Below the pieces are notes generated by a model. It made no database searches. It worked only from the letters and a program-made list of their open reading frames with translations, and was not told where the DNA came from. The position numbers and the translations under genes were made by a program. 64,000 nt of DNA. Origin: Armatimonas rosea. Its GTDB lineage: Bacteria > Armatimonadota > Armatimonadia > Armatimonadales > Armatimonadaceae. Location: assembly GCF_014202505.1 (NCBI RefSeq), contig NZ_JACHGW010000004.1:744001-808000 (forward strand). Direction: 5' to 3'. Position 1 is the first letter of the stretch. Each line of letters opens with the position of its first letter. Positions 1 through 24,441 of the stretch are shown piece after piece.

Positions 1-2189
1 GTGCCCCGGTTGTCCGGCACAGCGTACAGCACGTCCCAGGCCTCTTTGCGCCCCGAGCCGTTCTCCGCATCGGGATCGGTGGGGCGGGCGGCCCAAAAGG
101 CGTGCTCCGCGGCGAGCGGGGCGTAGCGCTCCAGGCACTTTCCCAGGTACCACAGTGAGCGGGGCGGAATCCGCTGCTCCGCGTGCGCTCCCTGCGGCGG
201 GTGGACGCGCCGGGGGCCTTTGCCTGGAGCGACCACCCCCCACTCGCGTCCCTGATCGACCACCATCAGGTTTTTGTAGCCCGCCTCGGACTCCCCGTTG
301 AAGGGAGCCGAGAGCGCGCTGACCAGCCAGTCGGCCAGCTCGGCGAGCTGGGGCGAGAGAAAGCGCTCACGGCCATCGTACTGGCGCAGCAGAAACTCGG
401 TGCGGAGCGACGGGCGCAGAAAGGCCCAGACATACGTCCCCAGGTTCTCCGTCCAGCGCCCCCCCGCTGCGTCCCAGGCCGTAACCGCGGGCCGCGTGTT
501 GAACCGCGTGTTCAGCTCGACACACTTCTCCCACAGGTCCGCCCAGGTCGCGGCCAGCGGGTGCTCGGGGAAGAGAAACGCCATCCCCGGCGGCACGGCC
601 TTGACATCGGCGAGGAAGTTCGGGTGACCACTGAGCATCCCGACCAGCGGCATGAACTCATCGGCGGCATGGACATGGGCCAGCAAGAGAAAGATCGCAG
701 TAAGCCGTCGGCGCTGGCGCACGCTCATCGAAGCGCGACACTGGTTGAATCCCTCGATCCAGCTGGTCACCTGGCGGGTCGGGACGGGGCTAAAATTGAC
801 AATGCTCCGGCCGGGGATCGGCCCGTGCCCCGCCATCTGCCGGGTCCCCGTGACCGGCAGGGTGCAGACAAACGGTGACGCCAGGACACGGCGCTCCAGC
901 TCCGCGGGGTCTGCGGGCGTTGGACTCGCCAAGATCACCGGCGGACGGCGCGCGGTCTCGGGATACTCCAGCACCCAGTCCTTCACGCGATTCAGGTCAA
1001 GGCTGCCGTAGCGGTTCTGCAAAAAGAGCGTGTGCGACGTGAAAGTCAGCGGGACGGCATAGGTCAGCGCATCGGGGTGCGGGACTTTCTGAAAGCACTT
1101 CTCCAGCGCGTGCATCGCCTGCTTGTCCTTGGCATGATCGTAGAAGGCAAGGCAGGTCGAGCGGCTCCCCTTCACCAGTGGCCACTTCCAGAGTAGCTTC
1201 CCCACTTGGTAGTGGAAGCGCACTTGCAGGGTCGGGGCCTCGACTTCGTAGGCGTACTCGTGGTCTTGCCAGCCCTCCACACAGTCGATAAACACCCCCA
1301 AGGCATCGCCCGAGCGCTGGTTCCAGAAGTTGGCCCAGGTCCCCGTCTTGAAGTTCCCCGGTGCCCGCTCGTAGACTCCCAGGCTAAAGGGCAGGCGCCC
1401 CTCGGGCAGGCTGTGCGGCTCAAAGATCCAGGGCGCATCGACCTGCTCCCACGGGTAGTCATCGTAGTTGCGAACCTCGTCCGTGAGGGGAAACGGGTGG
1501 TTCGGTGCCTGCCGGTGCGTGATGCCTAGGCCCGCCCAGTCAAGGACAAGGCTTCCCGTCACCCCCGGCCGCAGCCCCTCCATGTCCTCCTGGAAGCGCA
1601 CAAAATCCAGCCCGCCCTCACACTGCACCCGCGCGACATAGCGACTGCCGCCCTTGGTCTCGTAGGTCAGCGCGTAGGCAAGAAACAGCGGCCCGTCGGC
1701 GACGCGCTTGGCGGTGATACGTGTCACCTTGTCGTTGGCAAAACGCAGGGTCGAGGTACCAAACCACTTTCCCCCGCGCGATACCTGGAGAATCGGGCCA
1801 GGCGCGTCGCCCTGCACCTCCTGGCTCGCCGGGATGCGCACTCGCACCGCCCCCGAGTCCAGAACAATCGTCCGCCCCTCCCGCCGCTCGGTCACCTGCG
1901 CAGGATGCACCACGGGCGCACTTGTTGGCGTCAGTACAAACGCGCGCCGTCCGCCGCTGGGCAGGTCCGAGAAGAAGCTCAGGGTCGCCCGAGTCGCGCC
2001 CGCACGGTCTCTCACGATATCGGAGAGCTGCGCAGGAACCTGCTCTCCCGTCTCGGCACGCACCAGCGCCAAGTGGCGCAGCTCGGCGGGCGAGTCCAAG
2101 ACAAGCGGGTAGTGCAGCAGTGTCCGCGGCCACCAGTAGAACGGATGCTCCAGCGGGTCGTGCAGCACAAAGGTCTTTCGATAACTCAT
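1..2189 (-). CDS. Large uncharacterised protein, C-terminus cut by window edge
   Basis: An uninterrupted frame runs from ATG at 2189 off the left edge, giving 729 codons with no stop. It opens MSYRKTFVLHDPLEHPFYWW. There is no signal peptide or membrane helix, so the product is probably cytoplasmic. Residues 1 to about 330 look beta-rich, with many W, Y and F. The part after about 430 looks helical and includes HAADEFMPLVGMLSGHPNF. The layout (beta domain followed by a helical domain) recalls some polysaccharide lyases and hydrolases, but I see no family motif and do not assign a function. GGAG lies about 11 bases before the ATG. It is transcribed away from the FG-GAP gene at 2436. Confidence 0.8.
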   Translation of the reverse strand, partial: MSYRKTFVLHDPLEHPFYWWPRTLLHYPLVLDSPAELRHLALVRAETGEQVPAQLSDIVRDRAGATRATLSFFSDLPSGGRRAFVLTPTSAPVVHPAQVTERREGRTIVLDSGAVRVRIPASQEVQGDAPGPILQVSRGGKWFGTSTLRFANDKVTRITAKRVADGPLFLAYALTYETKGGSRYVARVQCEGGLDFVRFQEDMEGLRPGVTGSLVLDWAGLGITHRQAPNHPFPLTDEVRNYDDYPWEQVDAPWIFEPHSLPEGRLPFSLGVYERAPGNFKTGTWANFWNQRSGDALGVFIDCVEGWQDHEYAYEVEAPTLQVRFHYQVGKLLWKWPLVKGSRSTCLAFYDHAKDKQAMHALEKCFQKVPHPDALTYAVPLTFTSHTLFLQNRYGSLDLNRVKDWVLEYPETARRPPVILASPTPADPAELERRVLASPFVCTLPVTGTRQMAGHGPIPGRSIVNFSPVPTRQVTSWIEGFNQCRASMSVRQRRRLTAIFLLLAHVHAADEFMPLVGMLSGHPNFLADVKAVPPGMAFLFPEHPLAATWADLWEKCVELNTRFNTRPAVTAWDAAGGRWTENLGTYVWAFLRPSLRTEFLLRQYDGRERFLSPQLAELADWLVSALSAPFNGESEAGYKNLMVVDQGREWGVVAPGKGPRRVHPPQGAHAEQRIPPRSLWYLGKCLERYAPLAAEHAFWAARPTDPDAENGSGRKEAWDVLYAVPDNRG

Positions 2190-2254
2190 CTTAGAACGGC
2201 TCCATTGGTCTATTCCAATTACGGGTTAAATATATACCGATTTTCATAAATCTG

Positions 2255-2392
2255 CCGGGGCCTGAAAGTCCCCATCTCAGCCGCCTTCGGCGAAGCGGGC
2301 CGAGCCCGCGAGGAATTCGGTGCGGCCTCGGGCCGCTTCGCGCGGAGCGCGGCCCAGGCGGGGACTTTCAGGCCCCGACTTTCAGGCCCCGG
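2255..2392. repeat. Palindromic repeat family A, copy 1
   Basis: The outer arms CCTGAAAGTCCCC and GGGGACTTTCAGG are inverted. Inner GC-rich stem segments share the 'gaagcgggccgagcccgcga' core with the copy at 34036-34120. The right arm is partly duplicated (ACTTTCAGGCCCC appears twice). It fills the gap between two divergent genes. Confidence 0.7.
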
Positions 2393-2435
2393 CCATACCA
2401 CCGTCTCTTCCAGCCCAACGTGTTAAAATGCCCCC

Positions 2436-3857
2436 ATGAAATCTTGGCTCACCTCGCTCGTGCTGTTGGCAACCTTGGGGCTCGCCGCCCACGCTCAGCC
2501 ATTTCAAGACAAGACTGCGGCACTCGGGCTCGCACTGGGCAACGACCAGGCGTGCTGGGTGGACCTCGACAACGATGGCTTCACCGATCTCTGCGCCTCA
2601 GGGACGGTGTGGCACAACGAGCAGGGTCAGAGATTCACCAAGCGCGCCGAGGGGGTTGGGCTGGTGGTCGCGGCGGACTTCGACAACGATGGCTTTGCCG
2701 ATCTCTTCTCCTGGAGCCAGCTCAAGCTCTGGCACAACAACGGCGGCAAGAGCTTCACCGAGACGCCCCTTCCCACGCTACCCGCGTGTGTCTCCCGCGG
2801 CGCGTGCTGGGGGGACTTCAATGGCGATGGCTTCGTGGATCTCTTTATCGGCGGCTACGAGGACTGGGACCGGGGGATCACCTACCCCAGCCTGCTCCTG
2901 CTCAACCAGAAGGGCAAGGGCTTCACGCTCGCCTGGCAGGACGCGACCTACCGTGCGCGTGGCGTCACGGCCTGCGACTACGACCGCAGCGGGTCGCTCG
3001 ATATCTATGTCTCCAACTACCGCCTCCAGCCCAACCGGCTCTGGCGCAACGACGGCGCGGCACACTTCACCGATATCGCCCCCGATGTGCAGGCCCTCGC
3101 CACCACGCCAAGCTTCGAGGGCGGCCACTCGATCGGGGCGTGCTGGGGGGACTTCGACAACGACGGTCACTTCGATCTCTTTGCGGGCAACTTCGCCCAT
3201 GTGGATAGTCGCGGCGACCAGCCCAAGAGCCGCTTTCTGCGCAATCTCGGTCCCACGGGCGGCTACCACTTCGACGACAAAGGCGAGTGCGGGGTCTTCT
3301 ACCAGGAGTCCTATGCCAGCCCCGCGGCGGGTGACTTCAACAACGACGGCAACCTAGACTTGATCTTCACGACGGTCTACGGGGTCGCCTCGTTCAGCCG
3401 CCCCAACTTCCCCGTGCTCTACCAGAACCGCGGCAACTTTGTCTTCACCGATGCCACCGCAGCGGCGGGCGTGAGCAACCTACCCCCCACCTACCAAGCC
3501 GCCTGGGCAGACATCGACAACGACGGCGACTTGGACCTCGTCTGCGGCGGCAAGCTCTTTGTCTATCAAGGCTCCCCCAACACCCACTGGCTAGAAGTGC
3601 AGCTTGTCGGCGATGGCAAGCGCGTAAACGCCTCGGCGATTGGGGCACAGGTGCGGCTCACGCTCAAGGACAAGACCCTCACCCGACAAGTGGAAGCAGG
3701 AACCGGCGAGGGCAACCAGAACGACCTCACGCTTCATTTCGGCCTCGGCGCGGGGACGTCCCGTGTCACGCTTGAGATCCTCTGGCCCGATGGAAAAGTG
3801 CAGACCATCAAGCGCGCCAAGCCCGACCAGCGCCTGAGGGTTACCTACCGCAGGTAG
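2436..3857 (+). CDS. Secreted FG-GAP/VCBS repeat protein with ASPIC/UnbV C-terminus (CRTAC1 family)
   Basis: 473 residues. A Sec signal peptide covers residues 1-20 (MKSWLTSLVLLATLGLAAHA). At least seven calcium-binding FG-GAP motifs follow: DLDNDGFTDL, DFDNDGFADL, DFNGDGFVDL, DYDRSGSLDI, DFDNDGHFDL, DFNNDGNLDL and DIDNDGDLDL. These predict a seven-bladed beta-propeller. From about residue 395 comes an ASPIC/UnbV module (GAQVRL, LHFGLG, LEILWPDGK). The family is exported and probably binds ligands or carbohydrate; no enzymatic activity can be assigned. TAAAAT at 2424-2429 lies 6 bases before the ATG, so the transcript is probably leaderless. A distant relative is encoded at 55412. Confidence 0.9.
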   Translation: MKSWLTSLVLLATLGLAAHAQPFQDKTAALGLALGNDQACWVDLDNDGFTDLCASGTVWHNEQGQRFTKRAEGVGLVVAADFDNDGFADLFSWSQLKLWHNNGGKSFTETPLPTLPACVSRGACWGDFNGDGFVDLFIGGYEDWDRGITYPSLLLLNQKGKGFTLAWQDATYRARGVTACDYDRSGSLDIYVSNYRLQPNRLWRNDGAAHFTDIAPDVQALATTPSFEGGHSIGACWGDFDNDGHFDLFAGNFAHVDSRGDQPKSRFLRNLGPTGGYHFDDKGECGVFYQESYASPAAGDFNNDGNLDLIFTTVYGVASFSRPNFPVLYQNRGNFVFTDATAAAGVSNLPPTYQAAWADIDNDGDLDLVCGGKLFVYQGSPNTHWLEVQLVGDGKRVNASAIGAQVRLTLKDKTLTRQVEAGTGEGNQNDLTLHFGLGAGTSRVTLEILWPDGKVQTIKRAKPDQRLRVTYRR

Positions 3858-24035: not shown

Positions 24036-24048
24036 TTTCCATCTATAT

Positions 24049-24090
24049 CCCCCCCACCCAGAGGGTACCCGGCGGGGGTCAGGGGGCAGG
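24049..24090. repeat. Partial repeat family C between UBact and prcB
   Basis: ccccccacccagagggtaccc followed by ggcgggggtcagggggcagg resembles the end segments of family C with its AT-rich centre missing. It separates the modifier genes from the proteasome subunit genes. Confidence 0.5.
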
Positions 24091-24101
24091 CGCGCAGGGG
24101 A

Positions 24102-24287
24102 TTATTGTCCGCTGCGTTGTTCGTAGCGGCGCGCAAGGGTTGGGTCGACGCGCTTCATGCGCTCAAGGACGAGCGGCGGAAGGCGACTCTCCCCTTGCCG
24201 CGCAGGTTGTGTGGGGCGCGGCGCGGGCGGCGGTGGCGGAAACGGTTCGTTATTGTCCGCTGCGTTGTCGGTAGCGTTTGGCGGCAT
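24102..24287 (-). CDS. UBact (Pup-like) protein modifier, second copy
   Basis: 61 residues from ATG at 24287. It has a disordered, Pro-rich N-terminus (PFPPPPPAPRPTQPARQGES) and a C-terminus ERMKRVDPTLARRYEQRSGQ that matches the first copy at 13 of its last 18 residues. Pup-type modifiers are disordered, end in Gly-Gln or Gly-Glu, and are ligated through that residue; a C-terminal Gln would need deamidation by Dop. The start lies inside the 3' end of the first copy, in another frame (38-base overlap). No other ATG precedes the conserved tail, but an alternative start is possible. Confidence 0.8.
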   Translation of the reverse strand: MPPNATDNAADNNEPFPPPPPAPRPTQPARQGESRLPPLVLERMKRVDPTLARRYEQRSGQ

Positions 24288-24441
24288 TGGGGTCCACCCG
24301 TTTCATTCGGTCGAGGATGCCACGCGAGTCAGGGCGCTTGACATCGGGAGCCTTGGGGCCGTCGCCGTCACCGTTGCGGCGGATCGGGTCCACCGGGGTG
24401 ACAGGGCGGGTGAGGCGGTCATCTGCACGAAACTCTTCCAT
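24250..24441 (-). CDS. UBact (Pup-like) protein modifier, first copy
   Basis: 63 residues, acidic/basic and disordered (MEEFRADDRLTRPVTPVDPI), ending DRMKRVDPNAAKRYRQRSGQ. The position between dop and prcB is the one occupied by pup in actinobacteria, and the C-terminal RYxQRSGQ block fits the UBact modifier described for Gram-negative bacteria with proteasomes. It starts 15 bases after the dop stop, so it is in the same transcript. It is expected to be attached to lysines of target proteins for proteasomal degradation, after Dop converts the final Gln to Glu (family knowledge). Confidence 0.88.
   Translation of the reverse strand: MEEFRADDRLTRPVTPVDPIRRNGDGDGPKAPDVKRPDSRGILDRMKRVDPNAAKRYRQRSGQ

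Follow-up and report, generated by a model that had tools for sequence, protein, structure and literature searches.

To our knowledge, the bacterial Pup/UBact pathway has been described with one modifier per locus, and Pup loci generally with one pup gene each; in the openly accessible literature we found no paper describing a locus with a pair of Pup or UBact genes. Eukaryotic ubiquitin-like tagging, for its part, rests on paralogous modifiers with different fates. The C-terminal part of Pup binds the coiled coil of the ATPase and bears the reactive end for Dop and PafA, and the ATPase threads the disordered N-terminus of Pup into its pore (PMC3511204, PMC8755798). UBact (PF20513, NF033388) is a Pup-like modifier of several non-actinobacterial phyla, and here we describe a proteasome locus in which a canonical UBact gene, UBact-1, is directly followed by a second UBact-like ORF, UBact-2.

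Locus layout and family membership

The locus lies on the minus strand of the window, that is, the whole stretch of 64,000 nucleotides analysed, in the order dop (25962-24457), UBact-1 (24441-24250), UBact-2 (24287-24102), prcB (24035-23268) and prcA (23264-22488). The 501-aa dop product, a depupylase/deamidase homologue, matched PF03136 (E=1.4e-154) and TIGR03688 (E=8.6e-137), retained both the GIETEYG and LYNDHGHPEYSTPEC motifs, and aligned to the solved Dop structure 4b0r (E=6e-107). The proteasome beta subunit encoded by prcB matched PF00227 (E=4.8e-27) and TIGR03690 (E=1.7e-49), and the alpha subunit encoded by prcA matched TIGR03691 (E=1.5e-18).

The presence of two UBact-tailed ORFs between dop and prcB, proposed in the initial annotation, was confirmed by their coordinates and by profile searches. 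UBact-1 encodes a protein of 63 aa (MEEFRADDRLTRPVTPVDPIRRNGDGDGPKAPDVKRPDSRGILDRMKRVDPNAAKRYRQRSGQ) with the C-terminus RSGQ, which matched PF20513 (73.6 bits, E=1.1e-20) and NF033388 (76.7 bits, E=1.2e-21) over its full length and cleared both curated cut-offs (27.8 bits, gathering, and 35 bits, equivalog, respectively). UBact-2 encodes 61 aa (MPPNATDNAADNNEPFPPPPPAPRPTQPARQGESRLPPLVLERMKRVDPTLARRYEQRSGQ), also ending in RSGQ, and scored 30.3 bits with PF20513 (E=3.7e-7) and 30.7 bits with NF033388 (E=2.8e-7), above the Pfam gathering score but under the NCBIfam equivalog cut-off, so that annotation may skip it, and we therefore claim it as a divergent paralogue and not as an equivalog. With the Pfam profile, UBact-2 matched the family only over its last ~22 residues. 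The match of both ORFs to UBact is far beyond chance, and when all six frames of the whole genome (6.3 Mb, 19 contigs) were searched they were the only two matches over cut-off. As to location, UBact-2 lies, as UBact genes do, together with dop and prcBA. The possibility that it is a chance ORF was ruled out by the profile E-values, its conservation in a congener and the simulations described below.

The two genes share 38 nt (24250-24287, minus strand), which each reads in a different frame, a feature that the initial annotation had missed. The first ~12 residues of UBact-2 correspond to the DNA of the UBact-1 tail read in the +1 frame, and its predicted start codon falls within UBact-1; the sole later in-frame start is the ATG of MKRVDP, from which a peptide of 18 residues would remain. 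The start of UBact-2 has thus clearly been overprinted on the tail of its paralogue. Downstream of the overlap, the reported run of five prolines is real (residues 17-21, 24225-24239), and a UBact-like tail (ERMKRVDPTLARRYEQRSGQ) occupies 24105-24164. Between the UBact-2 stop and the prcB start there is a gap of 66 nt (24036-24101), which showed no convincing copies as a dispersed repeat within the window.

Dop, PafA, the 20S subunits and a Pup-type ATPase are all encoded in the window's genome, and the Dop and PafA motifs are present, PafA lying outside the window (G000:C7). The ATPase ORF (G000:C1:1485192-1486673, L136) gave the best TIGR03689 score of the genome, 452.7 bits, below the cut-off of 504.75; it ends in KKPSGVI and lacks the GQYL-like terminus that Mpa has. 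The genome also encodes a third and distant member of the Dop/PafA family, 499 aa long (PF03136, 107 bits; L109 6308-7807, minus strand, G000:C2:704520-705437), which is not near any UBact and was not found in the congener G008. We ruled it out as a partner of UBact-2, since G008 has the UBact doublet yet only two Dop/PafA-like enzymes. Elsewhere in the same phylum, G054:C14:9607-13928 holds a cluster of four Pup_ligase-family matches in ~4.3 kb, in addition to the usual two of that genome.

Tail conservation and selection

As a reference for the tail columns we used 92 distinct primary UBacts, among which eight columns never vary (R-19, D-14, P-13, Y-7, R-6, Q-5, R-4 and G-2, counted from the C-terminus) and residue -3 is always S or T. 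The conserved tail of UBact-1 (DRMKRVDPNAAKRYRQRSGQ, 24253-24312) has every one of these invariant columns together with a C-terminal Q or E. That both ORFs carry the conserved tail motif, as had been suggested, is correct by sequence and by profile matches, the pattern kept in UBact-2 being RM.RV.P..AR.Y.QR.GQ, within the region that matches the UBact profiles. UBact-2 of the window nevertheless breaks one invariant column (R-6 to E).

The sole other genome of the genus compared, G008, is a Lake Pavin MAG (record JAPLCP010000083.1), and it retains both UBact genes with the same overlap. Its UBact-1 is identical to that of the window at 62 of 63 residues. The single difference is the last residue (24253-24255 in the window), which is Gln here and Glu in G008, implying that members of one genus differ in whether the tag needs deamidation. 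The UBact-2 of G008 (MPPSATDNEAESNRSPPPTPPLAPPTRPLRDVDHEVLPKVMERMRRVKPDMARHYKQRPGQ) is likewise 61 aa long and overlaps UBact-1 in the same frame, is identical to that of the window at 32 of 61 residues and contains neither a stop nor an indel; it scored below both cut-offs (24.1 bits with Pfam, 23.6 bits with NF033388), and only 7 nt separate its stop from the start of prcB, as compared with 66 nt in the window. Three tail positions are broken in G008, which has K for D-14, K for R-6 and P for S-3 (the last beside the terminal Gly), while R-19, P-13, Y-7, Q-5, R-4, G-2 and the final Q are intact in both species, so that both proteins end in Gly-Gln, one of the two dipeptides (Gly-Gln or Gly-Glu) expected of a UBact. 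By its sequence, the UBact-2 tail is recognisable but relaxed.

The dN/dS ratios against G008 were 0.037 for UBact-1, 0.023 for prcB, 0.065 for dop and 0.10 for prcA. For UBact-2 outside the overlap, dN was 0.54 and dS 1.32, a ratio of about 0.41. This part comprises 148 nt of 56%-identical DNA without a stop or an indel, and the other two frames of the G008 stretch contain one to five stops. When sequences were randomly substituted to equal divergence, the frame stayed open in 17-25% of simulated runs, and an open frame with a pN/pS no higher than that observed was found in 0.2-1.4% of neutral runs, the range reflecting transition bias and starting sequence. Outside the overlap, 12 of the 23 residues shared with G008 use different codons, as do six of the eight shared prolines. 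The identity of the tail (13/20) and that of the linker (10/28) did not differ significantly (Fisher p=0.08). The dN/dS ratio, the simulations and the codon changes favour UBact-2 being a translated, weakly constrained protein, and we regard the evidence for selection as moderate because it comes from two sequences only and each simulated run begins from an extant sequence. The initial annotation had named stops ahead of the tail in close relatives as a refuting result; none was found, the frame being open in G008, the sole congener, and no simple pseudogene with stops was seen.

Second UBact genes in other genomes

The phylum-wide search of Armatimonadota covered 291 genomes, 167 of them with a UBact over cut-off. 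Genomes with more than one match were searched again, leaving out five of one genus (G181, G183, G184, G185 and G187); in their relative G180 the second match was due to chance, and those of their UBact loci that were examined hold one copy. Within this phylum, tandem pairs were present in the window's genome and G008 only. A single UBact is present in the other genera of this family, followed by prcB where the contig continues as expected, while in G016 (L038) a gene other than prcB follows. With the primary-UBact profile, no second copy was detected in the other loci examined, except in G609.

G609 (L139) belongs to a second phylum, for which 64 genomes, including Latescibacterota and Gemmatimonadetes records, were searched and 45 had UBact. 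Its tandem pair (3111-3308 and 3311-3589) precedes prcB, and the stop of the second copy abuts the prcB ATG. This copy carries a polyproline block (VPPPPPPFSPPSPEP) and ends in RYRQRDGGVN, with RDGGVN in place of RTGE, which, set against the first copy, looks as though the last codons had gained one base, whether in the genome itself or through faulty assembly. Between dop and the pair lie about 1.9 kb of unrelated DNA (about 1185-3095) that end with a 194-aa ORF. No tandem pair was found in the sample of a third phylum (289 genomes) or in one order of that phylum (213 genomes). In all, the sweep, which took in the phyla reachable from loci found in the analysis, gave UBact over cut-off in about 329 genomes (167+45+9+111, less 3 counted twice), with a tandem pair in three of these and in two lineages. 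The arrangement is thus rare and was seen twice independently, in line with the initial annotation, which had called two modifier ORFs in one dop-prcB interval unusual.

Proline runs do not exceed two in any of the 92 primary UBacts, and reach five, three and six in the tandem second copies. Unlinked second UBacts were found on other contigs in G709 and G292, both with an ordinary N-terminus, so that polyproline does not mark second UBacts in general; the proline block accompanies tandem pairs and not all second copies, an association drawn from two independent tandem lineages only. In G709 (L166 about 2042-2285, G709:C227) the unlinked copy has an altered tail (RLRSINPDQSRRYRQRSGQ), and a normal UBact-prcB locus is present besides. 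In G292 (L140 4783-5025, G292:C146) the ORF that overlaps the second UBact and extends downstream ends, by eye, like a primary sigma factor, and another UBact lies beside dop. A proline-rich unlinked UBact ending in RNGE in G022 (L101 2367-2555, minus strand, G022:C100) was held back as a third case, since that bin contains the proteasome locus twice, in versions 87% identical to each other, making strain mixing likely, and the second UBact may belong to another strain.

Possible roles of UBact-2 and comparison with known systems

On our best reading, UBact-2 would be a young, weakly constrained paralogue in which the enzyme-binding tail has been kept and the ATPase-engaging part replaced. It lies directly behind UBact-1, is kept in G008 and has accumulated more synonymous than non-synonymous change per site; the polyproline-bearing second copy of the G609 pair and the presence of Dop and PafA also speak for this reading. 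Ribosomes would start at the ATG within the 3' end of UBact-1, the neighbouring Dop would deamidate the C-terminal Gln, and PafA would then join the protein to lysines; both enzymes could be expected to act on UBact-2 because both read the tail. By analogy with Pup, the ATPase may dock on or thread its front differently, this part having a polyproline stretch and no GDGDGPxxPDVKRPD block, and UBact-2 may thus be a tag whose fate is slower or non-degradative, or may temper tagging by UBact-1. Since it combines a reactive tail with a different front, a second tag with changed ATPase processing would be its likeliest role. The whole proposal, a genus-specific second paralogue that is translated, weakly selected and serves as such a tag, is one that we hold tentatively, giving it somewhat less than an even chance, and the dN/dS of UBact-2, far above that of UBact-1 (0.41 vs 0.037, from two sequences only), counts against it, as do the broken invariant tail positions, the altered end of the G609 copy and the lack of a significant difference between tail and linker identity.

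The same rapid change (32/61 identical residues, against 62/63 for UBact-1), together with the loss of family-invariant tail residues, the tail lesion in G609 and the absence of UBact-2 from other genera of the family, would suit UBact-2 being what is left of a partial tandem duplication, decaying or of little use, perhaps translated but on its way out and, at least in G008, no working modifier. Partial decay is possible given that neither species retains R-6, that G008 has lost D-14 and S/T-3 as well and that the G609 copy ends in RDGGVN; a relic would not readily explain, however, why 148 nt of such divergent DNA lack stops and indels, why non-synonymous change is below neutral or why shared prolines survive codon changes, and we consider it the less likely account, though a serious one. 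The altered S-3 and R-6 could also block catalysis in a tail kept well enough for plausible binding, and UBact-2, in the same operon position as UBact-1 and prcB, might then bind Dop or PafA as a decoy or regulator, conjugate poorly and limit UBact-1 tagging; this appears unlikely, as a pure decoy would not need the C-terminal GQ found in both species. The short distances to prcB, 7 nt in G008 and a directly abutting stop in G609, would fit a translated leader coupling UBact-1 translation to prcB, with the protein sequence being secondary, but in the window this distance is 66 nt and a leader needs neither a UBact tail nor a proline block, which makes this role improbable. We give very little credence to a +1 frameshift in the UBact-1 tail that would fuse the UBact-1 front to the UBact-2 tail: the UBact-2 frame is open a few codons upstream of its ATG, within UBact-1, and CCC AAT GCC is conserved in both species, but a usable ATG exists and selection acts strongly on the frame in which UBact-1 itself reads its tail.

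The earlier proposal of two modifiers is therefore supported in part. Two UBact-family ORFs in such a rare arrangement stand in its favour, while constraint on UBact-2 is weak, with R-6 lost, and its origin by duplication followed by divergence of the disordered part is not supported as worded; that account makes the change too small, because homology is confined to the tail and the UBact-2 front is partly overprinted on UBact-1. If UBact-2 is a working tag, a second modifier with a different N-terminus and the same two enzymes would offer a natural way to test what part of a tag sets its fate; if it is decaying, the locus shows how such paralogues arise and fail. More broadly, some bacteria might have a two-tag system in which a degradative UBact and a polyproline-headed UBact from an adjacent (here overlapping) gene share conjugating enzymes, differ in ATPase processing and evolved more than once, a generalisation that we regard as doubtful.

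Among the loci surveyed, the G609 pair resembles that of the window in that its second UBact, which has a polyproline insert, lies directly after the first and ahead of prcB, and differs in belonging to another phylum and in a second copy with a different N-terminus, more of the family block (59.6 bits with NF033388) and the RDGGVN tail. The unlinked copies of G709 and G292, and the uncertain one of G022, are likewise second family ORFs, but are not in tandem. With respect to the Pup of Actinobacteria, the role of UBact as a tag whose C-terminal Gln or Glu serves Dop and PafA and whose N-terminus the proteasome ATPase threads would hold by analogy, and a phmmer search with UBact-1 gave no sequence match to any solved chain. 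UBact-2 shares with the UBact family the tail RM.RV.P..A..Y.QR.G[QE], and both are short disordered proteins encoded between dop and prcB; unlike the family, UBact-2 is without the conserved GDGDGPxxPDVKRPD block and R-6, has a polyproline stretch, and overlaps UBact-1 in another frame.
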